From Streptomyces sp. NBC_01591 (GTDB lineage Bacteria; Actinomycetota; Actinomycetes; Streptomycetales; Streptomycetaceae), in NCBI RefSeq assembly GCF_035918155.1, contig NZ_CP109327.1:2728001-2792000 (forward strand): DNA of 64,000 nt. The letters are read 5' to 3'. The notes below the pieces were generated by a model, which saw nothing but the letters and a program-made list of their open reading frames with translations, ran no database searches and was not told the DNA's origin. Below are positions 7,617-41,817 of this stretch, piece after piece (position 1 is the stretch's first letter; each line of letters starts with the position of its first letter). The position numbers and the translations under genes were made by a program.

Positions 7617-8837
7617 CTACTGTCGCACCTGAATCAGCGCGTGAGTTCCACTCGTACGCCAGGCAGCCCCGGACCGTTCGAGAGCGTCCAGCGTCCCCTG
7701 CTCCAGGCCGACGATGACATCGGACTTCAGGGTCCGGAGCGCCGCGACGGCCCCCGGGAAGTAGGCGGTGAGATCTGCGAAGGGCGCCGTGGCGTCCCAC
7801 AGCTGGTCGCCCACCAGGCGACGGTAGTTGAGGTCGCCCTTCAGGATGGTGAGCGTGGCGCTCTCGAACTCGTCTCGAAGGTCCTCGGGCATTTCCTCGT
7901 ACGGCAGCGGAGCGCAGAAGAACGGGTGGGTGTGGACCTCCAGGCTTCCTGCCGCCATGGCCTTCCACAGTCGGCTGCCGATCCGGCTGGCTTCGCTGGG
8001 AGCCTCGGTGAGGCGGCGGAGGCAGTCGACGACGTCAGTCGTCATCGCGTCGGAGACGTAGTAGGGGTGGGGCTTGACGTGAAGCAGGACCTGTTCGACA
8101 TGCTGCTGTTCGAGGAGGTGGTCGATGAGGATCAGGTCCGGGATGAGCTCTCGTCCCGCGTTGTCCGCCACCACGGCGACGGTGGAGGACGCTCCGGCGG
8201 GCAGAAGCTGCCACAGCAAGGCGCTGTCGTCGGCGACCAGCGTGGAGGTAGCGGCGTCACCGACCGCCGGCTCCCCCGCTGCAATGCGGAAGCCAAGGTC
8301 CGCGCGGTTGCCCCAGAGTGAGGCGTGGAGCAGGGCCGTGGACCGCTCGTCGGTCGGCGCGTCCGCGAGCGCGTCAAGGGCTCGCAGCTCCTCCTCCACC
8401 GCCTCGCCGCGCAGTTCGGCCTGCTTGAATGGCGCGAACGGATCAACTCCCTGCCATGGGCCGGTGCCGAAGTACTCGATGGCGGCGAGGAGCCTGCGGT
8501 AGAAGTAGCTCTCCGCCCACAGGAACGGAGCGTCGTACCACGAGTGCCCGAAGTGCTCCTGCCCCCAGTACGCCCAGCGGACGTGGTCGTGTTCCGCGGG
8601 GGCAAGCGTTTCGATGACGCCGTTGGTGATCTCGTCCAGCAGGGCGTCAAGGGCCTCGTGCTGCCGGCGACAGTACGGGAAGGCGTCTCGCACCTGCTGG
8701 ATGAGGGCAGGGTGGCGCTTGGCCAGCACATCCCAGGCGAACGAGCCAGGTTCGTTGCTCAGGATGACCGGAGCACCCATGGGGCCGGCGGCGCGAACGG
8801 CCTCGCCGCCCGAGGTTCGGGAAGTCTTCTCTGTCAT
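7617..8837 (-). CDS. DUF89 / ARMT1-type damage-control phosphatase family protein
   Basis: 406 residues from MTEKTSRTS, chosen because AAGGA lies about 10 bases upstream; an in-frame start at 8903 has none. DUF89 features are clear: VVADNAGRELIPDLILIDHL (the metal-binding D-N pair), HVKPHPYYVSDAMTTDV, and an N-terminal helical domain with FWAYWGQEHF-like aromatic clusters. Members are metal-dependent phosphatases that hydrolyse damaged or reactive sugar phosphates and phosphopantetheine derivatives; related ARMT1 proteins were also reported as carboxyl methyltransferases. It is transcribed alone and convergent to the PAP2-like gene. Substrate not predictable. Confidence 0.85.
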   Translation of the reverse strand: MTEKTSRTSGGEAVRAAGPMGAPVILSNEPGSFAWDVLAKRHPALIQQVRDAFPYCRRQHEALDALLDEITNGVIETLAPAEHDHVRWAYWGQEHFGHSWYDAPFLWAESYFYRRLLAAIEYFGTGPWQGVDPFAPFKQAELRGEAVEEELRALDALADAPTDERSTALLHASLWGNRADLGFRIAAGEPAVGDAATSTLVADDSALLWQLLPAGASSTVAVVADNAGRELIPDLILIDHLLEQQHVEQVLLHVKPHPYYVSDAMTTDVVDCLRRLTEAPSEASRIGSRLWKAMAAGSLEVHTHPFFCAPLPYEEMPEDLRDEFESATLTILKGDLNYRRLVGDQLWDATAPFADLTAYFPGAVAALRTLKSDVIVGLEQGTLDALERSGAAWRTSGTHALIQVRQ

Positions 8838-8862
8838 GGTGTCCAAATCCTTCGGTTCTCGC

Positions 8863-9225
8863 TCACGAGTCCATGATCCCCAGGGCCACAACGTCGGCCG
8901 CACTGCCTACGAGCACCTCGCCGTCGCGGGTTCGAAGGCCGCGCAGCTGACTGTCGCGGTCGTGGTGTCGATGACGCCGACGCCGCCAGCGCCGTCGCCG
9001 ACCACGGCAGTGCGTCCACCGGCCGCGAACTGTGTGGACCACACGGTGTTCGAGCCGCTGGCCAGAGTCCTGAGCCTGCTCTCCCTCAAGGTCCAGACGC
9101 GAACGGCGCCGTCCTCGCATCCAGCGATCACGGTGCCGCCGCTCATCCTGGCGAGTGAGCGCACCCAGCCCACGCCTGGCGGGAGCTGGGTCTCACTCAG
9201 GGACGCATCGACGAGAACCGGTCAG
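8863..9225 (-). pseudogene. WD40-repeat protein remnant, 5'-truncated and frameshifted
   Basis: An open frame without its own start reads a WD40 blade (GGTVIAGCEDGAVRVWTL, then TVWSTQFAAGGRTAVVGDGA) down to about 8940, where it ends in SCAAFEPATARCS. In the frame offset by two, the sequence continues as a plausible WD40 C-terminus (DGEVLVGSAADVVALGIM) until the stop at 8863. A stop precedes it at about 9226, so most of the propeller is missing. A small frameshift near 8930-8950 explains both halves. It directly abuts the DUF89 gene and is probably the scar of a rearrangement. Confidence 0.65.
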
Positions 9226-10193: not shown

Positions 10194-11432
10194 TCAGGTT
10201 GTGATAACTCCCGACCAACTACCAAACGCAGAAAGTTCGTTGGAGGGGTGTGCGTCCATCCGCAGAAGCGCCGCGGTCGTCTCGCGAGCTGAAGGGTGGA
10301 ATCGCGTGTGGTTCGGAGCGACCTTCCGCGCACGTCGAAGGTCCACAAATGCGCCCGCCCTGTCCCCCGCGGCCAGCTTCGCTGAAGCCACGTCGATGAA
10401 GTGGTGGCTTGACCGCTCACCCACCGTTGACGTTGGAGGCGCCCACTCCTCACCCGGCATGTCGGACCACTCCGTGAGTCGCGCCAGGGCTTGCTCCGTG
10501 TCGCCCAGGTCGATCATGGCGTGCACTTCGTGAATTCGGATGTTCGTCGGCCCGAAGGACATCTCGTAGGCGAGGGAGTCACGGTTGCCGGCCATCCTGG
10601 CCACGGTCTCGGCTTCGCGCAGGTAGTCGTCTGCGCGGTCCGGGTTGTTCTCCCTGGCTTCCAGCACGGCCAACTTCAGCAGCAGGGCCCCGTCCACCGC
10701 GAGCGCGTCGTCGGTGAATGAACGCTCCGGCTGCAGGCGCTCCAGTTCCTGGCGCAGCGCCTGGAGCTTGCGACGAGCCGATGAGTAAGCCCCCTGGCGA
10801 AGCATTGCCCCAGCGACCAGGTAACCAGCGGTGAACTTCATCAGCGGATCGCCGGACCGGTCCGCCGCCCACCGCACCCGTTCCAGCGCCGTGTTGGACA
10901 GGTCGTGATGCCCCATCTTGTGCGCGAGGGAGTTCACTGCCCGGTAGGCGCGGGCGAGGTGCCAGAACGCCCTGGCCTGGTCACCGTTGCGACCGTCGAG
11001 AGCGAGATGCGTCAGCTCCGTGAGAATGGGCGGCAGGAGCGGCCCCATGGGGGCGTAGCGCGCATCCCGTCGCAGAGCCGCCACCTGGTCGACCTCGGAC
11101 GCGAGAACCGGCAGTGCTCTTGGCGCGATCTCGAGTTCGTCCGGGGTGTCGTAGCACAACATGATCCTCCGGAGCTCGGGGACCACTGCGTGTACTCCGT
11201 CCTCAGCCTCCGGCTCACCGTAGTACGGCTGGCCGGTCAGAACCTCGGGACCGAAGTGGAGCGCCTTGGCGAGCGCCAGGACCAGAGACGGCGAAGCCTT
11301 GCGCGCGCCGGATTCGAGCTTCTGGACGTAGCTGGGCGATATCGCGACCTTCTGTGCCAGTTGAGCGGCAGACAGCTTCCGTGTTCGGCGGGCTATACGG
11401 AGACGGTCTCCCAGCGTCAGGTTTTCACTCAT
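10194..11432 (-). CDS. XRE-family regulator with C-terminal TPR-like sensor domain
   Basis: 412 residues from MSENLTLGDR, preceded by AAGGGA. The N-terminal 60 residues are a clear Cro/C1 helix-turn-helix (LGDRLRIARRTRKLSAAQLA, then ISPSYVQKLESGARKASPSL). The remaining ~340 residues are helical repeats rich in Ala/Leu/Arg resembling tetratricopeptide repeats (for example QARAFWHLARAYRAVNSLAH), the layout of peptide- or ligand-responsive Streptomyces regulators. It is transcribed away from the biosynthetic operon beginning at 11884. CGGACA palindromes in front of both promoters suggest that it controls itself and the operon. Confidence 0.85.
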   Translation of the reverse strand: MSENLTLGDRLRIARRTRKLSAAQLAQKVAISPSYVQKLESGARKASPSLVLALAKALHFGPEVLTGQPYYGEPEAEDGVHAVVPELRRIMLCYDTPDELEIAPRALPVLASEVDQVAALRRDARYAPMGPLLPPILTELTHLALDGRNGDQARAFWHLARAYRAVNSLAHKMGHHDLSNTALERVRWAADRSGDPLMKFTAGYLVAGAMLRQGAYSSARRKLQALRQELERLQPERSFTDDALAVDGALLLKLAVLEARENNPDRADDYLREAETVARMAGNRDSLAYEMSFGPTNIRIHEVHAMIDLGDTEQALARLTEWSDMPGEEWAPPTSTVGERSSHHFIDVASAKLAAGDRAGAFVDLRRARKVAPNHTRFHPSARETTAALLRMDAHPSNELSAFGSWSGVITT

Positions 11433-11475
11433 CGGTGGATCGTTCCCTTCGCGACGGAGCACTGCGCTCAGCGTA

Positions 11476-11883: not shown

Positions 11884-12696
11884 ATGCGCTATCCGCCGAC
11901 GAGTACCCACCCGTCGACGAGCCCGCTCGCGATCAGCACACACCCAATAGGTGACGTACCGCTTGGCACTTCCCTCCAGCGGAGTTCCGTGGCTCCGACT
12001 CCACGCCCGACAGCGGTGATACTCGATCTCTTCGGCACGCTCGTCCCGGCCCCGAGCGCAGTCGAACGGAGCGCCGCAGCCGCCGAGTTCGCCGAGGTCA
12101 TGCGCGTATCCGCGGAGGTCGTCGAGTCGGCTCTGTCCGGCAGTTGGCGGGCGCGGCACGACGGGCAGCTGAGGTCCACGACCGAAGTCGCGATTCGCCT
12201 TGCCGCCCGCTGCAACGCTTCCACCGCCTGCACGGACGAGCTCGAAGCGCTCCTGGCACGGCTCGCCCACAATCGGTTGCGGACCGATGAGACCCTGTTG
12301 CACGCACTGGATGAACTCCGCGACCGCGGAGTCAGGTTGGGCCTCCTCAGTGACGCTTCCCCTGACATCGCCGAGGTGTGGCGCCGCAGTGAACTCGCAC
12401 CGCACTTCGACGCCGTCGTGTTCAGCTGCCGGGCGGGTGCGGTGAAGCCCGACCGTCAGCTCTTTGTCGCGGCCCTCGGAGAGCTCCGTGTCGCGCCGAT
12501 TCAGACCCTCTACTGCGGCGATGGTGGCGGTGACGAGCTGGCCGGCGCGGAACGAGCCGGGATACGTGCTCTGCGCGTGGCCCGCCGGGGCGGGATGACC
12601 GGCCTGGCGTTCGGCGAGATCGTCTGGCATGGCACTGCCATACCCGACGTGGAGGCCCTCCCCTCCCTGCTGGACAGGTGGGGAATCAATGACTAA
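11884..12696 (+). CDS. HAD-superfamily hydrolase, first gene of the biosynthetic operon
   Basis: 270 residues; GGAG lies 7 bases before the ATG. Motif I is ILDLFGTLVP, giving the nucleophile Asp but with Phe in place of the usual second acidic residue; motif II is LLSDAS; the motif III Lys is in GAVKPDRQLF; motif IV is YCGDGGGDELAGA. The overall form is a cytosolic HAD phosphatase or dehalogenase-like enzyme with a helical cap after motif I. The first ~42 residues are a Thr/Pro/Ser-rich extension unusual for the family; a start nearer the core is possible. In this operon it may dephosphorylate a sugar- or nucleoside-phosphate intermediate. Its end overlaps the next gene by 8 bases. Confidence 0.85.
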   Translation: MRYPPTSTHPSTSPLAISTHPIGDVPLGTSLQRSSVAPTPRPTAVILDLFGTLVPAPSAVERSAAAAEFAEVMRVSAEVVESALSGSWRARHDGQLRSTTEVAIRLAARCNASTACTDELEALLARLAHNRLRTDETLLHALDELRDRGVRLGLLSDASPDIAEVWRRSELAPHFDAVVFSCRAGAVKPDRQLFVAALGELRVAPIQTLYCGDGGGDELAGAERAGIRALRVARRGGMTGLAFGEIVWHGTAIPDVEALPSLLDRWGIND

Positions 12697-13690
12697 CCCG
12701 CTTGCCTGGGCCGTTGAGGGCGGCATCCTCTGTCAGCTTCCGGCTCCGCTCGACGTGTCCTCCGAGCGCGAGACGATGATCATCGAGACCCGCTACACGG
12801 GATTGTGCGGAAGCGATGTCGCGAAGCTCAATCATCCCTGGCAGGGGCGATTACCGGAACCGTGGCACCCCGGGCACGAAATCGTCGGGGTTGACGCAGA
12901 GACGGGGGACTGGGCCGCAGTCGACCCGCTGGTCCCCTGTTTCTCGTGCCACTACTGCGACCGCGGCCATGTTCACCTCTGCCCGAGGCTCCGACGGATC
13001 GGATGGGATCTCCCCGGTGGCCTCGCCGACGCCGTGAGGGTGCCCCGCGACAACGTCGTCCCGCTGCCTCATCTGCACGATCCCGCGCACGGGGTCCTCG
13101 CCGACCCTGTAGCGGTGGCCTTGCACGGAGTCCGTTGCGGACTCCGGACGCCTCTTGGGCGGCTCGGCATCATCGGGGGCGGCGTCCTCGGAGTTTGCAC
13201 GGCCATCTGCGCGGCAGAGGCGGGGTGGGACGTCCACATGATGGTCAGGGAACCTTCGCGGTCGCATCAACTGAGATACGTCCTCGACTCGCACATCACC
13301 CTCCACTCCGCCGACATGCCACCGTGCGATGTCGTCGTGGACGCCGCGTCCGGTCTCAGTGACGCCCCGATACGCCAGGCGCTGAAGGCTGTTCGTGATG
13401 GCGGAACGGTGCTCGTGCAGAACGCCTACGCGCCCCGCGTCACGCTCTCCATCCCCTTGCGGGACATCTTCCGTCGCTCGATCACCCTGCGCGGCTCCTT
13501 CTCGTACTGCCGCGCCGATGGTCACGACGACTTCCGAGACGCCATCGACGTCATCGCCAGGGGCGGCGACTGGGCTGCCCTGATGACTCGGGACCGATTC
13601 CCCCTCATCGAGCTGCCACAAGGGCTGGCGGCCCTCGGCAGCCAAGCCCGTCATCGTCCGTTCAAGGTCCTGCTCACATGCGACACATGA
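12689..13690 (+). CDS. Zinc-dependent medium-chain alcohol/polyol dehydrogenase
   Basis: 333 residues from MTNPLAWAV, with AGGTGGGG just upstream. MDR-family features are intact: catalytic zinc ligands in TGLCGSDVAK and PGHEIVG, the structural zinc cysteines in CFSCHYCDRGHVHLC, and a Rossmann nucleotide site GIIGGGVLGV. Gene order resembles dehydrogenases in aminocyclitol and nucleoside clusters that oxidise a secondary hydroxyl to a ketone, which is inference. It is translated from inside the HAD gene's 3' end, so the pair is coupled. Confidence 0.85.
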   Translation: MTNPLAWAVEGGILCQLPAPLDVSSERETMIIETRYTGLCGSDVAKLNHPWQGRLPEPWHPGHEIVGVDAETGDWAAVDPLVPCFSCHYCDRGHVHLCPRLRRIGWDLPGGLADAVRVPRDNVVPLPHLHDPAHGVLADPVAVALHGVRCGLRTPLGRLGIIGGGVLGVCTAICAAEAGWDVHMMVREPSRSHQLRYVLDSHITLHSADMPPCDVVVDAASGLSDAPIRQALKAVRDGGTVLVQNAYAPRVTLSIPLRDIFRRSITLRGSFSYCRADGHDDFRDAIDVIARGGDWAALMTRDRFPLIELPQGLAALGSQARHRPFKVLLTCDT

Positions 13691-13707
13691 GGGAAGGAGC
13701 CCCCGCT

Positions 13708-14859
13708 GTGGCGGTCACAACGCCATTGCTGGCCCACAAGATCAACGCGTCGGCCGATATCGCACCCCACGACGTGCACGAAGGAATCACAAGCATCCTC
13801 GGGTTACCCGAAGGCCACACGCGCGACGTGATGCTGGGAAGCGTCCTGACGGGCCTGCTCCTGCGGGGGCCGAGACTGGAGGAGGTCGAGGCCGCAGTCC
13901 GGGCCGCGACGGCCCTGGACCGAAACGGCTGGGACTTCCACCATCCACCAGAGGGCATGCGGTTCGTCGGCTACACGGGCAGCGGGAAGAAGACCTTCAA
14001 GACGATCAACCTCAGTACCGCCGCCGCGCTGGTGGCGGCCACAGGGGGAGCACACGTCGCGAAACTCGGATCGCGCAGCGCGTCGTCAAAGACCGGGTCC
14101 CGCGACTTCATCGACCAGGTGGGCGCGACGAGCGACACGGTGCCGCATCAGGAGATGGTCGACATCACGGCGGAGACCGGCTTCGGATTCTTCTCCATCG
14201 AGAACCGGGTGCCCGAGTTCGACCGTCGCTACGGAGGCAGGTTCCAGGCCGTACACGCCCTCAGTCTGGCGTTTCCCGCCCTCCTCAGCCCGGTCGCCTG
14301 CCCCGCCTACGTGTACGGCCTCTCGCACCCCGCAGTCGGCGCTTCCGCTCGGCTGCTCTCCAGGCTCGGCCTGCCAGATGTGACGGTCATCAACTCCAGC
14401 CTCGGCCAGGCGGTCCAGGTCGACGAACTGATCCCCGGAAGCACGGTGCGGGCCTGCCGGATCAACGCCGGCCACGAGGATCTGGCGTTCAACAACGAGG
14501 TGCGCAAAGGCGCAGCCTCGATGCCGCAGGACCTGATGTCCGTCACCCAGTACGAGGACCCGCGGGAGAACGTCGCCGCCGCGATACGCGTGCTGGCAGG
14601 GCAGGACGTCAGTCGGGCGCGGAACGCGGTCGCCCTCAACGCGGGCCTGCTCATGCTGACCTCCGAGGTGGTTCCCACCATTCAGTCCGGTATTGACCGG
14701 GCACTCACGATCATCGACGCGGGCGCGGGTCTGGACACACTCCAGCAGTTCGTACGTCTCACGGGCGGTGCCCCGGACAAGCTTCGCTCGCTCCTGCGTC
14801 CCGCCTCCTCGACGGCCCTCCTGGTCAGCTCCGGGAGTAGGGAGAAGGCATCATGCTGA
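13708..14859 (+). CDS. TrpD-family (glycosyltransferase family 3) phosphoribosyltransferase/phosphorylase-like enzyme
   Basis: 383 residues from a GTG with AAGGAG 8 bases upstream; an ATG at 13678 would overlap the preceding gene and lacks a site. The segment GYTGSGKKTFKTINLSTAAA followed by GGAHVAKLGSRSASSKTGS corresponds to the PRPP/phosphate-binding loops of anthranilate phosphoribosyltransferase and pyrimidine phosphorylases (expected GTGGD... NISTA... KHGNR.. SS..GS). The Asp of the GTGGD loop is replaced by Lys, so the substrate likely differs from both. It would make or break an N- or C-glycosidic bond to ribose phosphate. It overlaps the radical SAM gene by 7 bases. Confidence 0.75.
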   Translation: MAVTTPLLAHKINASADIAPHDVHEGITSILGLPEGHTRDVMLGSVLTGLLLRGPRLEEVEAAVRAATALDRNGWDFHHPPEGMRFVGYTGSGKKTFKTINLSTAAALVAATGGAHVAKLGSRSASSKTGSRDFIDQVGATSDTVPHQEMVDITAETGFGFFSIENRVPEFDRRYGGRFQAVHALSLAFPALLSPVACPAYVYGLSHPAVGASARLLSRLGLPDVTVINSSLGQAVQVDELIPGSTVRACRINAGHEDLAFNNEVRKGAASMPQDLMSVTQYEDPRENVAAAIRVLAGQDVSRARNAVALNAGLLMLTSEVVPTIQSGIDRALTIIDAGAGLDTLQQFVRLTGGAPDKLRSLLRPASSTALLVSSGSREKASC

Positions 14860-15749
14860 CGCACGACGAGCTCGGGATCGTCCACCTGGTGCTCAACACC
14901 GACTGCAATGCCTGGGATCTGGCTCCGACCAGCGCCTCACCAGGCGTGTGCCGCTTCTGCTATCGCGAGCGCAACCGGGTCCGGACCGACGCGGACACGG
15001 TCCGCCGTGTCATCGACCGGGTCCGTTCCGAATCCGAGGCCCATCGGTGCGTCTTCACCGGCGGCGACCCCGTGATGCCGTACGACAACCACCTGGAGGT
15101 CGCCCTCCAGCACGCCACCGAGGTCGGCTTCGAGACGAACCTCCACACCAACGGGCTGCTCCTCAGCGATCGCTATGCCGGCGTCCGCGACCACGTGACC
15201 GTGTACTCCTTGGCGGTCGACGGACCGAACTCCGAGTCGGCTGACTGGTTCCGCGGGCAGGGGTACTTCGCACGCTTCCTCTCCAACGTCGAGTTCCTCG
15301 CCTCCGACCAGCGGCGGCTCGCCTTCAATACGTTCACCACGGCCGGCTCCGTGAAGGAGCTGCCGAGCCTCGCGCGGCTCATCTCCGGAGTGACCCAGCG
15401 GACGGACGTCGAGTACTGGCTGATCTCCCAGTACCGCCCCATCGGCCGCGCCAGCACGCGTAAGGCGGAGATCTACGGCTTCGAGCGGGACGACTTCGTA
15501 CGGGCCGTGGACAACGTGCGCGGCGACGTCAATGGCGTGACGGTCTACGCCCAGCCGACGCGCGCGCCGGAGGACCCGTACCCGTTCCGCGTCTGGGTCC
15601 TCGCCGACGGAACAGTCACAGCGGACCTCGGCAGCGTCGCGGCGCCTCGCAACACGGAGCTCGGCGATCTCCTGACCGACGGCTTCGAACCGCTGGTCCG
15701 TCGGGCCTTCGCCCTCCGTGATCAGACTCAGCTGGAAGGAATCGCATGA
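14853..15749 (+). CDS. Radical SAM enzyme with CX14CX2C cluster motif
   Basis: 298 residues; GAGAAGG precedes the ATG. Cysteines C18, C33 and C36 form CX14CX2C (NTDC ... GVCRFCYRER) rather than the usual CX3CX2C; the aromatic before the last Cys is kept. FTGGDPVMPY matches the GGE/GGDP SAM-binding motif, and the rest is a short partial barrel without a SPASM or other auxiliary-cluster cysteine set. A CX14CX2C motif is known from some QueE 7-carboxy-7-deazaguanine synthases, but no queC, queD or folE partner is here and the protein is longer. It probably performs the radical step of the pathway. Overlaps the next gene by 4 bases. Confidence 0.8.
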   Translation: MLTHDELGIVHLVLNTDCNAWDLAPTSASPGVCRFCYRERNRVRTDADTVRRVIDRVRSESEAHRCVFTGGDPVMPYDNHLEVALQHATEVGFETNLHTNGLLLSDRYAGVRDHVTVYSLAVDGPNSESADWFRGQGYFARFLSNVEFLASDQRRLAFNTFTTAGSVKELPSLARLISGVTQRTDVEYWLISQYRPIGRASTRKAEIYGFERDDFVRAVDNVRGDVNGVTVYAQPTRAPEDPYPFRVWVLADGTVTADLGSVAAPRNTELGDLLTDGFEPLVRRAFALRDQTQLEGIA

Positions 15750-16762
15750 AGTTCGACACCGCGTACTACGAGAGCGTCATCGACCAGCACAGTTACGAAC
15801 GTCTGGGGCTCGGCGCCATCGACTTCGGCCTCGCGGGGATGAGCCCCGACGACCTGCACACGAAATGGGTGTGCCATACCGGAGCGCGCCAGTTCGCGGA
15901 GGCGGTCGCGGACGGTCAGCCCACGATCGTCACCACCGGGGTCGGGCTCGGGGGGCCGCCCCACGCCGGCACCCTCTTTCAGCTGCTGCGCGCCGTCAAG
16001 CTGCAGCAGTGCGGGCTCGACGTGCAGATCGTGCTGGGCGATCTCGACTCCTACAACGCCCGCCGCACGCCCCTGGACTCGGTACGGAGACTCGCCGACC
16101 AGTACGAGGAGTTCGTCCTGCGTCTCGGGTTCGACGCCGTGCGGGGTGTGCTGCGCAGGCAGGAGGGCGAGACCGAGGTCCTGGCCACCGCGTTCCTGCT
16201 GTCACGCCACCTGGACGACGACGACTTCCAGTGGGCGGAGGAGGACCTCGCCGGTCTCTACCGCAACCACGGGGTCTTCGACCACCTCAACTACGGGATG
16301 AAGCAGGCAACCCTGCTCATGGCCGCGGACTTCGTCCATCTCCTCGGCGAAGGGCGTCACGTCCTGGTCTCCCTCGGGGTCGACGAGCACAAGTACGTCG
16401 CCCTCGCCCGGCGCGGGGCGAAGCGCTGGGGCCTGCCCGCGGAACGGCTGTCCGGCATCTACACCAAGATGATCCCGGGCTTCGGTGGCCTCCCCAAGAT
16501 GAGCAAGAGCATCCCCGGCTCCGGCATCGACGCCTCCATGTGCGCCGAGGACATCCGGGCCCTGCTCAGGGCGGACACCGACACCTCCCCCACCGACGAC
16601 GGCTCGGCACTCCTTCAGATGTACGCGTGCCTGCCCGAGGTCGACGGCCGGGAGTACGCCCGGGCCTCGACCGCGCGCCGTGCCGGCGGCACCGAATGGC
16701 ACACCGTTCGCAAACAGTTGGTCGAGCGGATGCTCTCGCTGTTCTCCCACTGGCCGAAGTAA
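15746..16762 (+). CDS. Free-standing class Ic aminoacyl-tRNA-synthetase-like enzyme (Trp/TyrRS fold)
   Basis: 338 residues. A Rossmann catalytic domain begins near residue 60 (VTTGVGLGGPPHAGTLFQL), where H73-A-G75 stands for the HIGH signature. The second signature is intact as KMSKS at 251-255, followed by IPGSGI. Spacing and the VLGDLDSYNARRT segment resemble archaeal-type TrpRS/TyrRS. No S4 or clear anticodon-binding domain is present. It is embedded between a radical SAM gene and a methyltransferase gene in one operon, so a role in activating an amino acid for a small molecule, with or without tRNA, is more likely than in translation. Specificity unknown. Confidence 0.8.
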   Translation: MKFDTAYYESVIDQHSYERLGLGAIDFGLAGMSPDDLHTKWVCHTGARQFAEAVADGQPTIVTTGVGLGGPPHAGTLFQLLRAVKLQQCGLDVQIVLGDLDSYNARRTPLDSVRRLADQYEEFVLRLGFDAVRGVLRRQEGETEVLATAFLLSRHLDDDDFQWAEEDLAGLYRNHGVFDHLNYGMKQATLLMAADFVHLLGEGRHVLVSLGVDEHKYVALARRGAKRWGLPAERLSGIYTKMIPGFGGLPKMSKSIPGSGIDASMCAEDIRALLRADTDTSPTDDGSALLQMYACLPEVDGREYARASTARRAGGTEWHTVRKQLVERMLSLFSHWPK

Positions 16763-16776
16763 GCAAGGAGCATCTC

Positions 16777-17487
16777 GTGCACACAGACACCACGACCGCC
16801 CGCCGACCCCTCGGCGACGCCGAGTCCTACTTCATCAGGAGCGGCTACCGCAGCCGGGACCGGGTGGAGTACTTCCTCGACGAGACGGACGAGGCCGTGA
16901 CTTGGCAGCCCGACGTCTATCCCTACGCCGCCGCTCGGGCCAGGGAGCTCGGCCGCGATGTCGTGATCGACATCGGCTGCGGCCGGGCGGGCAAACTGGC
17001 GTCGCTGGCCTACGAGTACCCGGCCTGGTCCTTCATCGGCGTGGACTTCGGGGACAACCTCGTGTGGTGCCGCGACAACCACCCCTTCGGCGAGTGGATC
17101 GAGGTCGATCTCGAATCGGCCGAGCGTCTGCCCATCGACCCCGCCCTGGTACGCCGGTCCATCGTGGTCTGCTCCGACGTGATCGAGCACCTGGTGAATC
17201 CGGTTCCGGCCCTGTCCCTGATCCGTGGCCTCCTCCTGGAGGGAAGCGCCGCCGCCGTACTTTCCACGCCTGCCCGCGAGTGCCGCAGCGGTTACGACAC
17301 TCCCGGACCGCCCCGCAATCCCAGTCATGTGCGGGAGTGGGCGAGCGACGAATTCCAGGCGCTGCTGAAGGCTTCGGGCTTCGCGATCCACCACGCCGAG
17401 CTCACGCGAAGCGACGACGCCTCCAACGGCCTCTCCACCCAGCTGCTCCTCGTCGGCGCGGAAGAGGCGGAGGTAGAACAGCGGTGA
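16777..17487 (+). CDS. SAM-dependent class I methyltransferase
   Basis: 236 residues from a GTG with AAGGAG 6 bases upstream, 14 bases after the synthetase-like gene. Motif I is VIDIGCGRAGKLAS, motif II is FIGVDFG, and SIVVCSDVIEHLVNP matches the post-II/III region of the Methyltransf_11/23 type that act on small molecules (O-, N- or C-methylation). The N-terminal SYFIRSGYRSRDRVEYFLDE helix is probably the substrate lid. It shares a 4-base GTGA overlap with the following glycosyltransferase gene. Confidence 0.85.
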   Translation: MHTDTTTARRPLGDAESYFIRSGYRSRDRVEYFLDETDEAVTWQPDVYPYAAARARELGRDVVIDIGCGRAGKLASLAYEYPAWSFIGVDFGDNLVWCRDNHPFGEWIEVDLESAERLPIDPALVRRSIVVCSDVIEHLVNPVPALSLIRGLLLEGSAAAVLSTPARECRSGYDTPGPPRNPSHVREWASDEFQALLKASGFAIHHAELTRSDDASNGLSTQLLLVGAEEAEVEQR

Positions 17488-18572
17488 CAGCGGTTCCCCG
17501 GTCCGAGGGCATGCGTGTCGTTCACCTCCCGGCTCGTACACCGTACGCGTGGAAACTACGGAGCCACGACTTCCACATCCTGAACGGAACCGAGATCCCC
17601 GGCGGCGACACGGTGCCGACGGCGGTCAACGCCACCTGGCTCCTCGAACATGCCCCTCTCACCTGGCTCGATGTCCTGCACCTGCACCACATCGACTTCG
17701 AGGACCCCGCCACTCTGGAGCGCCTGCTCGACGCGTGCGTGGGCGACGGAGTGAAGGTGGTCTTCACCGCCCACGACACTCGGCCCATGGTCGGCAGCGC
17801 CGAGGACTTCACCACACGGCTGCGGTTGCTCCACTCGGCCGAGGTGAGCTGGGTCTGCCTCACCGAAGGCTCTGTCACCAAACTGACCGAGGTCCTCAGC
17901 AAGCGTCCCGACGCGGCCGTCGTCCCCCACGGGTACGTCGCGGCCCCGGAGGAACTGGCCGGCCTGGAGCGCGAGCCCAGCGCCTCGCCCCGGTACCTCA
18001 TGTTCGGGGCCTCACGGGCCAGCCGGGACCAGTTATCCACCCTGGCCAACTGGAGTCTGGGGATCACGAACCCCGACAGCACCCTCCACGTCCTTCTGCG
18101 CGCCTTCAGTCCTGCCGACTTCGCCGACGGAGGCCGCGCTCCGCTGCTACTGGAGACGGCCCGGCGCGATCCCCGTATCCGTCTGACCATGCGCCCGTAT
18201 CCCACGGACGAGGAAGTGGTCGAAGCCGGCCTGGCATCGGACGCGCTGCTGCTCCCCTACCTCTGGGGCAGCCACTCCGGCCAGCTGGAGCTGGCCTTCG
18301 ACCTGAACCTGCTCCCGGTCTGCTCCCTCACGGGACACCTGACCGAGCAGTACGAGCAGCACAAGGGGCTGGTCGAGGAGCCTGAGTGGTTCGACTGGTC
18401 GCAGGGGCACCCCAATCTCTTCGGAGAGAGGTTCCTGACCGCCCTGGAGAACGCGGCGGCTCGGCTCGACTCCAGGCCACGCCGTCTGGATCGTGAGTTC
18501 CTCGACCACAGGGCTCAGGAACATCAAGCGATTCTGCGGCAGTACGCCCGCGTGTACGGAGGTGACCGATGA
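17484..18572 (+). CDS. GT-B fold glycosyltransferase (GT4-like)
   Basis: 362 residues from the GTG overlapping the methyltransferase stop. N-terminal domain has RVVHLPARTPYAWKL and VVFTAHDTRPM, the central linker includes AAVVPHGYV, and the C-terminal domain has DALLLPYLWGSHSGQLELA where GT4 enzymes bind the donor nucleotide. The domain order fits a retaining GT-B enzyme; the E-X7-E motif is not perfect. Cytosolic, presumably transferring a sugar to the pathway product or a lipid-linked precursor. Confidence 0.7.
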   Translation: MTAVPRSEGMRVVHLPARTPYAWKLRSHDFHILNGTEIPGGDTVPTAVNATWLLEHAPLTWLDVLHLHHIDFEDPATLERLLDACVGDGVKVVFTAHDTRPMVGSAEDFTTRLRLLHSAEVSWVCLTEGSVTKLTEVLSKRPDAAVVPHGYVAAPEELAGLEREPSASPRYLMFGASRASRDQLSTLANWSLGITNPDSTLHVLLRAFSPADFADGGRAPLLLETARRDPRIRLTMRPYPTDEEVVEAGLASDALLLPYLWGSHSGQLELAFDLNLLPVCSLTGHLTEQYEQHKGLVEEPEWFDWSQGHPNLFGERFLTALENAAARLDSRPRRLDREFLDHRAQEHQAILRQYARVYGGDR

Positions 18573-19486
18573 ACGGCCCGCCTCGTATTTCGTGCGTGAT
18601 CCTGTGCCACAACTACGGCCGGTATCTCGACCGGGCCATAACGAGCTGCCTGGAACAGGAACCCGGAGACTTCGTCCTGCACGAGGTGATCGTCATCGAC
18701 GACGGTTCCATCGACGAGACCGAAGACGTGTGCCTGCGCCACGCGGGAAACGACAAGGTCAAGATCCTTCGGAGGAACCAGCAGGGTTTCGGACAGACCC
18801 TGACCGACGCCTTTCTCGTCAGCACCGGTGACTGGGTGGCTCCGCTCGACGCCGACGACTGGTTCCACCCGTCGAAGCTGCGTACCTGCGCCGAGGCGAT
18901 GACAGGTGGGACGCTGTTCATCGAGCACTGGGAGCACGTGGTCGACTCCGACGGGAACCCGATGTTGAAGGAGCCGCACCCGGGCGGGAACACGAGCACG
19001 CTGGTGGTCCACCGCGATGCCGCCCTGAGCCTCCTTCCGGTGAGCAACGAGATCTTCTTCCACGCGTTGCGCGAGGCCGGCCGAGGCATCGCCCTCCGGG
19101 ATCCGTTGACCTTCTACCGGGTCCACCCCCGCAGCATGACCGACCGCGGTACGCCCGGCGTCTCACAGGACTACCGGGCCGAGGTCTGCGTCACGCTCTC
19201 GGACCGTCTCCGTGCGATGGACGGGAATCCTCCCGCGTGGGCGGACAGTCGCCGGCTACGAAGGAGCTCCTGGCATTTCCGCACGCTGGCCTTCGGCCAC
19301 CGGGTGGAATCCGCCATGCAGCGGGAGAAGCGCCTGTCCGCGGTGCTCCTGATTCCAGGAATGCTCATGGGCACGCTCCGTTCCCGTGACCCGATAAAGC
19401 CGTGGCTCCGGTCGCTTTCCAGTACGGTCGCGGGACGGCCGCTGGTGCGGCTGACTGCAGGCCCGGGACAACCGGGTCATTCATGA
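18569..19486 (+). CDS. Family 2 glycosyltransferase
   Basis: 305 residues, GGAGGTG 4 bases before the ATG, overlapping the previous gene by 4 bases. GT2 hallmarks: SCVILCHNYGRYLDRAITSC, EVIVIDDGSIDET for nucleotide-sugar binding, and the DXD-like LDADDWFHPSK. No transmembrane segment is evident, so it is a soluble inverting transferase. Last gene of the coupled operon; the next gene (TyrRS) follows after 99 bases. Confidence 0.85.
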   Translation: MNGPPRISCVILCHNYGRYLDRAITSCLEQEPGDFVLHEVIVIDDGSIDETEDVCLRHAGNDKVKILRRNQQGFGQTLTDAFLVSTGDWVAPLDADDWFHPSKLRTCAEAMTGGTLFIEHWEHVVDSDGNPMLKEPHPGGNTSTLVVHRDAALSLLPVSNEIFFHALREAGRGIALRDPLTFYRVHPRSMTDRGTPGVSQDYRAEVCVTLSDRLRAMDGNPPAWADSRRLRRSSWHFRTLAFGHRVESAMQREKRLSAVLLIPGMLMGTLRSRDPIKPWLRSLSSTVAGRPLVRLTAGPGQPGHS

Positions 19487-19585
19487 TCAATCCGACGATG
19501 TAATGAAGTTGGCGATGATAAAATTGCCGCTTCCAATCCCACTACTGGTCAGGCCAGTTGTCCGACGCAGGAGCGTATAGGCGCC

Positions 19586-20989
19586 ATGAGCCGTTTGAGC
19601 GAGTCCGTCACCCGTGTCATGCACATCCTCGATGGAGCGGACCTGGGCGCGGACTATACGGCCGCGCAGCTGCTCGGCGAGACAACAGCACGGCGCTCCC
19701 TCGACCTCTCCGACCTCTCCCCCCGCGAGCAGGCGGCCCTGGTCGAGGGGCGCGCGAACCACCTGATCCCCTCGGCCGCGGCACTCGCCGAGAAGATCGA
19801 GGCCGCGCAGGCGGCGGGACGACCGTTCGTCGTCAAGTACGGCATCGACCCGACCTCGCCCGATGTCCACCTCGGCCACGCGGTGCCGATCATCATCGCC
19901 AGCCGGTTCCAGCGGATGGGCCACCACGTCGTCTTCATCATCGGCGACGTCACGGCCAAGATCGGCGATCCGTCGGGACGCTCCTCGGAGCGACCGCCCC
20001 TCACCGACGAGGACATCGCTCGCAACCTGAGTGGCTACCAGCAGCAGGTCACACCGTTCATCGACTTCGAGCGGGCCGACCTGCGCTTCAACGGCGAGTG
20101 GCTGAACAAGGTCACCCTGCCGGAGCTCGTCGGGGTCCTGGCCCGGGTCCCGGTCTCCATGTCGCTCCAGCGCGAGGACTTCCGCACCCGGCTCGCCGAG
20201 GGCCACGGGCTGTCCATCGCCGAGCTCGTCTACTCCGTCGTCATGGCCTGGGACTCGGTGGCTATCGACGCCGATGTCGAACTCGGCGGCATGGACCAGC
20301 TGCTGAACCTCCAGATGTGCCGCAAGGTCATGGAGATCTCGGACCAGACCCCCGAGGTCGTCATCACCACCTCGCTCATCGAGGGTACCGACGGTACGGG
20401 CGCCAAGATGAGCAAGAGCAAGGGCAACTACGTGGGCCTGACGGCATCGCCTGATGACGTCTACGGCCGGCTGATGTCCATCCCCGACCACCTCACCGAG
20501 CCGTACCTCCAGCTGCTCACCGAGTGGACGGACGACGAGATCCGCGTGCTCACCAAGCGCCTGGAGGAGGGAACCGCGCACCCGATGGCGATCAAGCGGA
20601 TCCTCGCCGGGGAAGTGGTGGCAGCTCTCCACGGCCTGGACGCCGCTGCCGCCGCACGCGCGGAGTTCACGGCGCGCTTCTCCAAGCGCTCCTTCGGCGA
20701 CACTCAGAACCTCCCCGTCATCTCCCTGAAGGACCACTCCGAGGACACGCTCGGGGCACTGATCCGTCACACGCTGGACTTCGCTCCCAGCATCTCCGCC
20801 GTGCGCCGCGTGGCCCAGCAGAACGGCCTCCGCCTCATCCTCGAGTCGGACGGAGAGCAGCAGACCACGCAGCTCACGGAGGCTTCTGTCCAGCAGGTGC
20901 TCAGCGCGGTCGTGAGCGAGGTCGGGGCACTCGATGGTGCCGAGCTGTACCTCAAGGTGGGCCGCAAGGTCGCCCGCATCAACCTCTGA
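19586..20989 (+). CDS. tyrS: Tyrosyl-tRNA synthetase, second type; candidate self-resistance copy
   Basis: 467 residues. Class Ic synthetase with HLGH at 95-98, GDPSGRSSERPPL, the tyrosine-site segment GGMDQLLNLQMCR, KMSKS at 274-278 and a C-terminal ~70-residue S4-like RNA-binding part ending LKVGRKVARINL. Features such as RFNGEWLNKVT and the GTDGTGAKMSKSKGNY loop resemble the TyrZ-type enzyme seen in many Gram-negatives rather than the usual ~420-residue actinobacterial TyrRS. It lies directly after the biosynthetic operon, with its own strong terminator. Such placement fits a drug-tolerant duplicate protecting the producer, but a housekeeping role cannot be excluded from this window. Confidence 0.9.
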   Translation: MSRLSESVTRVMHILDGADLGADYTAAQLLGETTARRSLDLSDLSPREQAALVEGRANHLIPSAAALAEKIEAAQAAGRPFVVKYGIDPTSPDVHLGHAVPIIIASRFQRMGHHVVFIIGDVTAKIGDPSGRSSERPPLTDEDIARNLSGYQQQVTPFIDFERADLRFNGEWLNKVTLPELVGVLARVPVSMSLQREDFRTRLAEGHGLSIAELVYSVVMAWDSVAIDADVELGGMDQLLNLQMCRKVMEISDQTPEVVITTSLIEGTDGTGAKMSKSKGNYVGLTASPDDVYGRLMSIPDHLTEPYLQLLTEWTDDEIRVLTKRLEEGTAHPMAIKRILAGEVVAALHGLDAAAAARAEFTARFSKRSFGDTQNLPVISLKDHSEDTLGALIRHTLDFAPSISAVRRVAQQNGLRLILESDGEQQTTQLTEASVQQVLSAVVSEVGALDGAELYLKVGRKVARINL

Positions 20990-21402: not shown

Positions 21403-21814
21403 GGCAGACGAGTCGGGCTGTACGCCGGGTTCTGTCGCCCGGTCGCCTCGCGGCGGCCGGGGAGACGGCCATCCATCTAGGACCGGCATTGCTGCCGGTC
21501 TCGTGCGGTCTACCCGCGAACTCGGGCGGGCCGCCCTCGATCATTCGCGCAGGGCTGCCTTGCGGCGGCCCCTCTTGACCTTGCTCCGGGTGGGGTTTAC
21601 CTAGCCGCCTGAGTCACCTCAGGCGCTGGTGGTCTCTTACACCACCGTTTCACCCTTACCGAGGACCGAAGTCCCCGGCGGTCTGTTTTCTGTGGCACTG
21701 TCCCGCGGGTCACCCCGGGTGGCCGTTAGCCATCACCCTGCCCTGTGGAGCCCGGACGTTCCTCGGGGAGATCCGAAGATCCCCACGCGGCCGTCCGCCC
21801 GGCTCGTCTGCCGT
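21403..21814 (-). ncRNA. rnpB: RNase P RNA (rnpB), bacterial type A
   Basis: On the minus strand the P1 stem pairs GGCAGACGAGCCGGG at the 5' end with CCCGACTCGTCTGCC at the 3' end with one mismatch. Conserved core elements read in order: GAGGAACGTCCGGGCTCCA (CR I region), ACAGAAAACAGACCGCC, GGTAAGGGTGAAACGGTGG, GTAAGAGACCACCAGC, and near the 3' end ACAGAACCCGGCGTACAG. These identify catalytic RNA of RNase P, which matures tRNA 5' ends. Boundaries are set by P1 and may be off by a few bases. Confidence 0.96.
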
Positions 21815-39375: not shown

Positions 39376-41556
39376 TCAATCGCGCGGGAGGCCGAGGATG
39401 CGCTCGGCGACGACATTGAGCTGGACCTGGGTGGTGCCGCCCGCGATGGTCAGGCAGCGGGACATCAGGAAGCCGTGCAGGGCCCGCTCCCCCGGCCCCT
39501 CGCCGGCCGCGCCCGCCGGGCCGAGGAGTTCGAGGGCGAGTTCGGCGACCTTCTGCTGGTGGGTGGTCTGGACGAGCTTGCGGATGGAGGCTCCCGCGCC
39601 GGGTTCGAGCCCGGAGACCTGCTGCATCGTGGTCCGCAGTCCGATGCAGCCGAGCGCGTGGGCCTCGGCGGCGAGCGCTCCGATGCGGGCCCGGCAGGCG
39701 CCGTCGAGTTCGCCGGAGCGGGCGATCAGCGCCTCCAGGCCGGTGTCGAAGGCCATCTGGTCGGCCATGTGGACGCGCTCGTTGCCCAGGGTGTTGCGGG
39801 CGACCCGCCAGCCGCCGTCGGCCTCGCCCACGACGGCGTCGGCGGGCAGCAGCACGTCGTCGAAGTACACCTCGTTGAAGAGGGAGTCGCCGGTGATCTC
39901 CTTCAGCGGCCGGATGTCGATGCCCGGGGTGTTCTTCATGTCGACCAGGAAGTAGCCGATCCCCTGGTGCTTGGGAGCGTCCGGGTCGGTCCTGGCGAGC
40001 AGGATCCCGTGGTCGGCCCATTGGGCGGCGCTCGTCCACACCTTCTGCCCGTTGATCCGCCAGCCCTCGTCGGTCCGCTCCGCCTTCGTACGGAGCGAGG
40101 CGAGGTCGGATCCCGCACCGGGCTCCGAGAACAGCTGGCACCACAGGAGTTCGCCGCGCAGGGTGGGCAGCAGATAGCGGTCCTGCTGCTCGGCCGTCCC
40201 ATGGGCGATGAGCGAGGGCACCACCCAGGTGGCGATCCCGAGATCGCTCAGCTTCACCCCCTGTTCCACCAACTCCTGCTGTATGGCCAGTTGTTGTACG
40301 GGACCGGCGCCCAGGCCGTAGGGAGCGGGGAGGTACGGGGCCGCGTAGCCGGTCGGGGCGAGGGCACGGCGGGCGGCCTTCGGGTCCAGGCCGCGGGCGG
40401 CGGCGACGGCCTCGCGCGCCCCGGCCCGGTGAGCGGCCGCCTCGGCGGGGAGTTCGAGGGCGAGTTCGCGGCGCGCCCCGCCCTCGGCCAGCCGGACGGC
40501 CCGCAGCCGGTGGGCGTCACCGGACCCCAGCAGTTGCCGGGCCACCAGGGCCCGGCGCAGATACAGATGGGCGTCGTGCTCCCAGGTGAAGCCGATCCCG
40601 CCGAGGATCTGGACGCAGTCCTTGGCGCAGCCGTACGCGGCGTCGAGGGCGTCCGACGCGGCGAGGGCGGCGACCATGGACCGTACGTCCGGGTCCGTCT
40701 CCTCGTCGGCGGCGCGGGCCGCGTCCCACACCAGCGCGCGGGCCCGCTCGACCCGTACGAGCATGTCGGCGCAGAGGTGCTTGACGCCCTGGAACTGCCC
40801 GATGGGGCGGCCGAACTGTTCGCGGACCTTGGCGTATTCGGCGGCGGTGTGCAGCGCTCTGGCCGCGGTTCCACAGGCTTCCGCGGCAAGGAGGGCTGCG
40901 GCGAGGTCGCGGACGTGTGCGGCGGAGGTCCGTACGACGCGTTCCGCCGGGACCAGTACGCCCTCGGCGCGGATCTCGGCGGTGGGCCGGGTCGGGTCGG
41001 CGCCGCGGTGCGGGCGTGCGGTCAGGCCCGCGGTGGCGGAGTCGACGGCGAACCAGAGGGTGCCGGTGGCCGATTCGGCGGGGAGGAGGAGCAGGTCGGC
41101 GTCGGCCCCGGAGAGGACGGGCGGTGCCGTGCCGTCGAGCAGATGGCCGTCCTCGTGCTCGACGGCGGTGAGGGTGCCGGGGCCGAGGGCGACGGCGCCG
41201 ATGCGGGTACCGGCCGCGAGCTCGCGCACCAGGTCGTGCGGCCCCGCCGTGTGCAGTACGGCGGAGGCGAGGGAGCTCGACAGGTACGGGCCGGGGAGCG
41301 CGGCCCGGCCCGCTTCTTCGAGGACCACGGCCAGGTCGAGGAGCCGGCCGCCCCCGCCCCCGTACTCCTCGGGCAGATGGATGGCGAGCAGGCCCTGTTC
41401 CGCGAGCCCGTCCCAGTACCCGGGGCGCACGCCGGGGGTACCGGGAGCATCCGCGTCGAGCAGCCTGCGGATCTCCTGCGGCGGCACGGCGCGCGCCAGC
41501 CAGCCCCGTACGGCCTGCGCCAACTCCCTGTGTTCTTCGGTGATTCCGATGCCCAT
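39376..41556 (-). CDS. Fused two-domain acyl-CoA dehydrogenase (FadE34-like)
   Basis: 726 residues from [16 protein letters not shown] upstream. Two acyl-CoA dehydrogenase modules are fused: residues ~1-345 ([53 protein letters not shown]) and ~380-726 ([75 protein letters not shown]). Fused ACADs such as mycobacterial FadE34 act on steroid side-chain CoA esters, replacing two-gene heterotetramers. A KstR-type site is 42-55 bases upstream. First gene of its operon. Confidence 0.93.
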
Positions 41557-41597
41557 GCGGATCCTCGCCGGTCGCAGCCACTGGAACGGCGCAAGAG

Positions 41598-41611
41598 TAG
41601 AACACGTTCCA
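41598..41611. promoter_or_regulatory. KstR-type operator 2
   Basis: TAGAACACGTTCCA fits TNNAACNNGTTNNA exactly. It lies between the acyl-CoA dehydrogenase gene and the divergent MFS gene, nearer to the former. Confidence 0.75.
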
Positions 41612-41817
41612 TTCTGACGGAAGGTCAGATGACGGCCGGATCTCCGCACGCTTCGGGCCGAGCGCGCCGTCGTGCCCCGTTCGCACCGCGTTCACCGGAA
41701 TACCTCGGGCACCGGGAAGGTTTCACCCTGCACGCACTTGGCGGTGCGGGCGCTTCCCGCCCGCACCGCCCGCACGCCTCTTCAGAACCTCGATCACGCC
41801 GCCCGGAGGCCGCACGT

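Follow-up and report, generated by a model that had tools for sequence, protein, structure and literature searches.

Gene clusters that make inhibitors of aminoacyl-tRNA synthetases (aaRSs) and carry a resistant extra aaRS are already known. In the ascamycin (acm) cluster, AcmF couples an amino acid with a nucleoside sulfamate and AcmD is more resistant than the canonical synthetase copy, while in the cluster for SB-203207/SB-203208 (sbz) an aaRS inhibitor is made beside an extra copy of its target (IleRS, SbzA), and the resistant SbzA itself transfers isoleucine from Ile-tRNA (excerpt of PMC12945691). Here we analyzed a 64,000-nucleotide stretch of the 10.25-Mb genome of Streptomyces sp. NBC_01591 (C1:2728001-2792000; subsequently designated the window), which contains an operon of nine genes: eight plus-strand genes at 11884-19486 are followed by a gene for tyrosyl-tRNA synthetase (TyrRS) at 19586-20989. 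Three of the eight, encoding a zinc-binding dehydrogenase (ZnDH), a protein resembling anthranilate phosphoribosyltransferase (TrpD-like) and a protein resembling tryptophanyl-tRNA synthetase (TrpRS-like), form the core of a family of loci that, judged by arrangement, resembles the known clusters. As in acm, a synthetase-like ligase appears to stand beside a resistant extra synthetase copy, but the acm enzymes are of the AlaRS type and not class Ic, and the excerpt of PMC12945691 does not mention a TrpD-like/ZnDH core for acm. The core family differs from sbz in that the predicted ligase is a separate TrpRS-like protein, with TyrRS or tryptophanyl-tRNA synthetase (TrpRS) as the predicted target. 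Judging from the genes and their conserved residues, the operon probably makes a small-molecule, tyrosyl-adenylate-like inhibitor of TyrRS, with the linked TyrRS serving as the self-resistance copy.

The core was traced through the TrpRS-like protein, for which 323 relatives were recognized among 8000 candidates scored (the best 120 were listed), and which was located at 49 loci in named genomes. Bacterial hosts include Streptomyces, Jiangella, Amycolatopsis, Saccharopolyspora, Frankia, Clostridia, Bacilli, Alphaproteobacteria, an Acidobacterium and candidate-phylum bacteria; the archaeal hosts belong to DPANN, i.e. a Woesearchaeote and a Nanoarchaeote. Neighbourhoods were counted in 48 loci, 19 close and 29 more distant ones, with the decayed locus L055 set apart. 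A TyrRS gene lies at most 6.5 kb from the TrpRS-like gene in 42 of the 48 loci, although that of L032 encodes a divergent class Ic protein. ZnDH is present in 45 loci (as fragments in L046 and L054) and the TrpD-like gene in 44; of the four loci without it, three lie on short or truncated stretches and the fourth is L053. The trees of the three core proteins, built from 28-29 rows out of the 48 loci and the window, have correlated distances (r between 0.59 and 0.88; 0/5000 permutations); duplicates L116, L123 and L124 and fragment L145 had been removed from the sequence sets. As the correlation partly reflects host relatedness, it demonstrates co-inheritance and not function. The recurrence of the core neighbourhood across phyla and the correlated trees bear out the initial reading of the operon from its sequence alone, which had taken it for a biosynthetic operon: the genes form a coherent, co-inherited unit.

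The TrpRS-like gene is rare. At E 1e-30 it was detected in 7/295 genomes of the genus, and in 1/396 genomes across the phylum, namely the genome under study; at this cut-off, the sole one used, the phylum-wide survey revealed no further branches. Within the Micromonosporaceae (the family of G316), 10/300 genomes carry it, 3 of them with TyrRS linkage. For the TrpD-like protein, 81 relatives were listed with at least 56% identity, and those with named hosts are nearly all from Streptomyces and Kitasatospora, with others in Jiangella, Longispora and a Micromonosporaceae genome. In two database proteins (P0180 and P0196), the TrpD-like sequence is joined to a tyrosine recombinase domain, perhaps through insertion of mobile elements into the gene.

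The TyrRS of the operon passes the family profile (TIGR00234, 260.1 bits versus a cut-off of 113.8) and carries the HLGH and KMSKS motifs. The window genome possesses a further, housekeeping TyrRS at C1:2137666, so that an additional copy of the predicted target aaRS lies in the cluster and a housekeeping copy elsewhere. At least two strong TyrRS matches (E 1e-10 or better) were found in 26 of the 34 host genomes searched. Among 119 Actinomycetota, two full TyrRSs scoring above the family cut-off were found only in the window genome; in G443 a single gene is split into two pieces.

Most linked TyrRSs are altered in the tyrosine-binding pocket. Residues were numbered according to Bacillus stearothermophilus TyrRS, using an alignment with 2ts1. 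Among 31 conventional linked TyrRSs, 28 carry a pocket change: Gln173, which presumably contacts the amino group of tyrosine, is replaced by Met (22) or Val (1), and Gly191 by Cys or Ile (5). This count leaves out L055 and L120, which both have Met, and two divergent proteins. The window enzyme carries Q173M, as do the linked TyrRSs of two loci found later (L236 and L238; Met173 in both). In a control set of thirty unlinked TyrRSs, most of which come from the same genomes, Gln173 is retained in 30/30 and Gly191 in 29/30 cases; L055 and L120 were kept out of these controls and grouped with the linked copies. Both residues are likewise invariant (30/30 each) in a second background of 30 Actinomycetota TyrRSs, the best-scoring ones of the 119-genome survey; the housekeeping TyrRS of the window genome is part of both control sets. 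In Staphylococcus aureus TyrRS, Gln174 (equivalent to Gln173) and Gly193, located beside the Gly191 equivalent, were highlighted as pocket residues in a simulation that used another ligand (excerpt of PMC9686979).

In a sister branch, the linked synthetase is TrpRS instead of TyrRS. Streptomyces loci L175 and L176 contain TrpD-like and TrpRS-like genes beside an FAD oxidoreductase and a TrpRS, and each of these genomes holds another TrpRS; the TrpD-like loop discussed below reads GSGKE in L175. A search of the 300 Micromonosporaceae genomes, whose ten loci were found after the idea of an inhibitor with self-resistance had been formed, uncovered ten new places besides L042, i.e. the two TyrRS-linked loci L236 and L238 and the TrpRS-linked loci L237 and L239-L245. 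All eight TrpRS-linked genomes of this family have at least two TrpRSs (8/8), while a single TrpRS was found in each of the family members G316 and G726, which lack the TrpRS branch, if a weak cross-match to TyrRS is disregarded. G833 carries both branches. TrpRS-like proteins from TrpRS-linked loci group in a single clade (support 100, 10/10), and a block of conserved residues changes between the branches, for example Gly70 to Asn, His73 to Thr, Asp101 to Gly and, mostly, Tyr103 to Trp. The 22 rows of the other branch used here include L038 and L051, which have no nearby TyrRS, and pocket and site positions derive from alignment and not from a bound structure. As to TrpRS copies in the comparison genomes, G043 has one and the window genome two, at C1:4274990 and C1:5327125, which belong to different lineages and do not lie beside the operon; a second TrpRS alone therefore means little. 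An altered pocket in the linked TrpRSs was considered too, but nothing is claimed from a comparison of 2 linked and 5 other TrpRSs by eye. The linkage to TyrRS across phyla, the altered pocket and the replacement by TrpRS in the sister branch together indicate that the linked synthetase marks the target of the product. The sequence-only reading had listed the TyrRS as an 'extra' enzyme of the operon; that it is an extra copy stands, while an accessory role does not agree with these three observations.

The TrpD-like enzyme shares PF00591 and the conserved Thr, Asn, Ser, Lys and Asp-Glu positions with a genomic anthranilate phosphoribosyltransferase (TrpD). However, it reaches only 124.8 bits with the TrpD equivalog TIGR01245 (cut-off 199.05), and it lacks GTGGD, the phosphate-binding loop of TrpD: the 19 aligned family rows have GSGKK instead, and GTGGD is seen in the genomic TrpD of L005. 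The window genome encodes two other TrpD-like genes. The TrpRS-like protein shares with tryptophanyl-tRNA synthetase the class Ic fold over its whole length, according to a predicted model, as well as the HIGH-type and KMSKS motifs. It scores far below all listed NCBIfam cut-offs for TrpRS equivalogs (e.g. 31.9 versus 176.75 bits), and, unlike tryptophanyl-tRNA synthetase, the family has invariant residues of its own and, as counted above, a TrpD-like neighbour. KMSKS or KFSKS is kept in 32/32 rows, and Asp195, which aligns with the Asp of TyrRS and TrpRS for aromatic recognition, in 31/32. From these sequence features the enzyme is predicted to attach an amino acid to the inhibitor scaffold. 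We had considered that it lacks an anticodon-binding part, as profile matches end early, but rejected this idea since the model aligns over the whole length, including the C-terminal part, to class Ic synthetases; contact with tRNA may thus be possible.

In the pathway we propose, all steps of which we infer, the TrpD-like enzyme would transfer a 5-phosphoribosyl group from phosphoribosyl pyrophosphate (PRPP) to a nucleophile, the HAD phosphatase would remove the phosphate, and the Zn-dehydrogenase would oxidize a sugar hydroxyl. The TrpRS-like enzyme would activate tyrosine, or tryptophan in the sister branch, and join it to the ribose-derived head group, giving a stable, non-hydrolysable mimic of an aminoacyl-adenylate. 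In Actinobacteria, the radical SAM enzyme, the methyltransferase and the two glycosyltransferases may tailor the product and perhaps serve its storage, export or uptake. The product would block the normal TyrRS, while the linked TyrRS, changed at Gln173 (at Gly191 in other lineages), would still charge tRNA(Tyr) and bind the inhibitor less well. The product may be glycosylated and nucleoside-like, as the sequence-only reading suggested; its nucleoside or ribosyl nature is deduced from the TrpD-like and HAD enzymes only.

A different role for the linked TyrRS would be a mainly biosynthetic one, in which it supplies Tyr-tRNA as tyrosyl donor for the TrpRS-like enzyme and protection is secondary. 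There is precedent for such a dual function, as AcmD does both jobs and AcmF uses Ala-tRNA, and the whole-length alignment of the TrpRS-like model leaves room for tRNA contact; yet AcmF has lost most ATP-binding residues (excerpt of PMC12945691), whereas the TrpRS-like family keeps its KMSKS/KFSKS motif throughout. Moreover, Tyr-tRNA is already made by the housekeeping TyrRS, and its supply needs no pocket substitutions. The history of the TyrRSs bears on this question as well. Placing 31 linked TyrRSs in one clade against 31 other TyrRSs was rejected (p-AU 2e-70; five changes), indicating that different TyrRS lineages were recruited. This test left out L120 and the two divergent class Ic proteins (L032 and the second one of L043) and counted L055 as unlinked; the TyrRS set took in 6 of the 19 close loci. 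A biosynthetic enzyme is expected to travel with its pathway, while a self-resistance gene may be recruited anew. Given the repeated change of TyrRS lineage and the incomplete linkage, we regard a mainly biosynthetic role as unlikely and favor self-resistance.

The lineage of the cluster TyrRS also occurs on its own. It was found in 54/295 genomes of the genus, compared to the 7 with a TrpRS-like gene (E 1e-30), all of which have it; 44 of the 54 show neither a Y-type core nor a remnant thereof, and 3 have remnants. In 13 sampled Streptomyces out of these 44, it was the only TyrRS found (13/13), and hence it must be a working TyrRS that charges tRNA. The stand-alone genes sit in a shared chromosomal neighbourhood (L166-L171, L177-L183). 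Position 173 is Met in 7/13 and Gln in 6/13, with the Gln forms branching from within the Met forms. The simplest reading of this pattern would be that a resistant TyrRS took over as the housekeeping enzyme and subsequently reverted at Gln173. Two of the genomes with a stand-alone Met173 form (G145 and G202) carry the TrpRS-linked branch elsewhere. Clusters of decayed appearance were seen in L172 (TyrRS plus a fragment of the TrpRS-like gene), L174 (partial TyrRS plus a GT2 fragment) and L173 (partial TyrRS only). Genes in the stand-alone neighbourhoods and in the Micromonosporaceae loci were called by a simple GC3 rule, which misses genes; the ten latter loci were re-checked. For the broader proposal that a sparse, very widespread system of bacteria and DPANN archaea builds stable aminoacyl-adenylate mimics with a common TrpRS-like/TrpD-like core, that its ligase and resistance synthetase switch together between tyrosine and tryptophan, and that a resistant TyrRS became a housekeeping enzyme in some Streptomyces and reverted, we see the arguments as evenly poised.

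The stand-alone enzymes also speak to another possibility, i.e. that the core produces a modified amino acid, which the linked TyrRS would load onto tRNA for a special translational use. The location of Q173M in what we take to be the amino-acid pocket and the presence of two class Ic enzymes in one operon would agree with this. However, the Met form is the sole TyrRS found in seven sampled Streptomyces and so must be able to charge ordinary tyrosine, no tRNA gene was found in the window, and the sister branch links TrpRS, which makes this explanation highly improbable.

Several findings weigh against a TyrRS inhibitor with self-resistance. The product is predicted from the genes alone. Counts of pocket changes are counts of sequences, and the underlying events number an estimated three to five. 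The pocket is unchanged in 3 of the 31 linked enzymes, namely both tandem TyrRSs of L030 and the first copy of L050, the latter of which may be the housekeeping TyrRS of its genome; the class Ic protein of L032 and the second one of L043 are too divergent for the pocket to be judged. Seven of the 13 stand-alone enzymes have Met173, five of them in genomes in which no core branch was seen, so that a linked cluster does not follow from Met173 by itself. For Gln173 the contact with tyrosine is presumed, and the simulation shows only that Gln174 lies in the S. aureus pocket (excerpt of PMC9686979). In the metagenome-assembled genomes G302, G311 and G317, the linked TyrRS is the sole strong match, so that these assemblies do not show it to be an extra copy. 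A TyrRS neighbour is missing from six of the 48 loci, and whereas L026 and L049 are short or truncated, this does not apply to L038, L046, L051 and L053. The window genome has two TrpRSs without carrying the TrpRS-linked branch. There is no exporter in the window operon, although an MFS gene occurs in L051 and ABC genes lie near L026. Candidate-phylum bacteria and DPANN archaea are unusual antibiotic producers. Finally, the Olsenella locus L051 contains an exporter and a nonribosomal peptide synthetase (NRPS) module but lacks a nearby TyrRS, which suggests other uses of the core.

In L051, a transporter of the major facilitator superfamily (MFS) and a 984-aa NRPS protein with adenylation, carrier and condensation domains are encoded between the TrpD-like and ZnDH genes (L051:8644-15921); the 984-aa protein was initially considered a third kind of synthetase, but this was rejected as it represents an NRPS module. 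This locus, together with hosts from lineages not known for antibiotics, would fit a pathway for some other small molecule (a signal, cofactor or storage glycoside) to which TyrRS or TrpRS is linked for regulation, all the more as HAD, dehydrogenase and glycosyltransferases are generic and a product is known from no host. But regulation predicts neither pocket substitutions in the linked TyrRS nor a change of the linked synthetase together with the residue block of the TrpRS-like protein, and we consider such a pathway distinctly doubtful.

If the linked synthetase is indeed a resistance copy of the target, it names that target, which would simplify both the choice of producers and the assay of the product. 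A switch of target accompanied by a corresponding change in the ligase would in addition allow ligase specificity to be read from sequence, and the evolutionary part, a resistance enzyme that apparently became the sole TyrRS and reverted a pocket residue, is testable on its own. To our knowledge, TyrRS and TrpRS are antibiotic targets for which few natural inhibitors are known. One candidate relative is SB-219383 from Micromonospora, in which an amide bond links tyrosine to a bicyclic amino acid of sugar-like character; such a structure would agree with the predicted logic. It is described as a tyrosine analogue targeting TyrRS (excerpt of PMC7916415). The relation is one of target only and a link to the core family would be a guess; a limited literature search found no gene cluster for this compound. 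Likewise, a limited search of open-licence papers revealed no description of the core pathway and no match of the whole operon to a described pathway, in line with the sequence-only reading.

The gene layout and enzyme families proposed from the sequence were recovered upon re-examination of coordinates, domain matches, the CX14CX2C motif, a GT-B model and methyltransferase homologues (Table 1). None of the nine proteins matched NRPS, polyketide synthase (PKS), ribosomally synthesized and post-translationally modified peptide (RiPP) or terpene families, and in the absence of NRPS/PKS/RiPP markers common cluster-finding rules may miss the operon, as had been anticipated.

Table 1. Genes of the operon and the divergent regulator gene, in window coordinates.
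Feature	Position	Strand	Evidence and remarks
HTH_31-type regulator, divergent, probable cluster regulator	10194..11462	-	Pfam HTH_31 1e-13 and weak TPR match
HAD-family phosphatase	11884..12696	+	PF00702 3e-15
Zinc-binding medium-chain dehydrogenase (ZnDH), core gene	12680..13690	+	PF08240 2e-14
TrpD-like phosphoribosyltransferase-type enzyme, core gene	13708..14859	+	PF00591 3.5e-24; alternative start ATG 13678
Radical SAM enzyme, CX14CX2C	14853..15749	+	PF04055 2e-11
TrpRS-like class Ic synthetase homologue, core gene, predicted aminoacyl ligase	15746..16762	+	
SAM-dependent methyltransferase-like protein	16779..17487	+	homologues match Methyltransf_23 (4/5 tested)
GT-B glycosyltransferase, GT4-like	17484..18572	+	predicted model near BshA, SenB, MshA
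GT2 glycosyltransferase	18569..19486	+	PF00535 7e-24
Second TyrRS, predicted self-resistance copy	19586..20989	+	TIGR00234; Met220 = B. stearothermophilus Gln173

The start of the HAD gene is uncertain, since homology to HAD begins at about residue 43. The methyltransferase-like protein of the window itself has no Pfam match, and the GT-B protein has no match to a Pfam glycosyltransferase. All nine genes occur in window order in 15 of the 19 close loci. Counting by similarity to the window proteins, HAD homologues are present in 19/19 close loci (a fragment in L019) and 9/29 others, and radical SAM homologues in 19/19 close and 3/29 distant loci, while GT-B and GT2 homologues occur in 12/29 and 9/29 distant loci, respectively; methyltransferases were counted in the same way. 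Other HAD phosphatases lie near the core in several loci, including distant ones. Radical SAM, GT-B and GT2 are thus mainly actinobacterial additions. A homologue of the divergent HTH_31 regulator (30-95% protein identity) was detected in 10/49 loci, and in five close loci it is conserved over the full length with 86-89% DNA identity.

The divergent class Ic proteins near the core mentioned above are encoded at L032:16055-17176 (Dojkabacterium) and L043:8942-9949 (Nanoarchaeote). Spread by plasmids was rejected, as a search limited to near matches gave no plasmid match. Downstream of the operon lies the RNase P RNA gene (rnpB; 21405-21806, minus strand); a conserved insertion beside it was rejected, as blastn showed rnpB adjacency in none of the other loci compared. 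Elsewhere in the window, an ARMT1-like damage-control phosphatase is encoded at 7617-8903 on the minus strand, and a 1379-aa open frame at 39475-43614, which may comprise more than one gene, combines MFS transporter and carboxypeptidase-regulatory-like domains.

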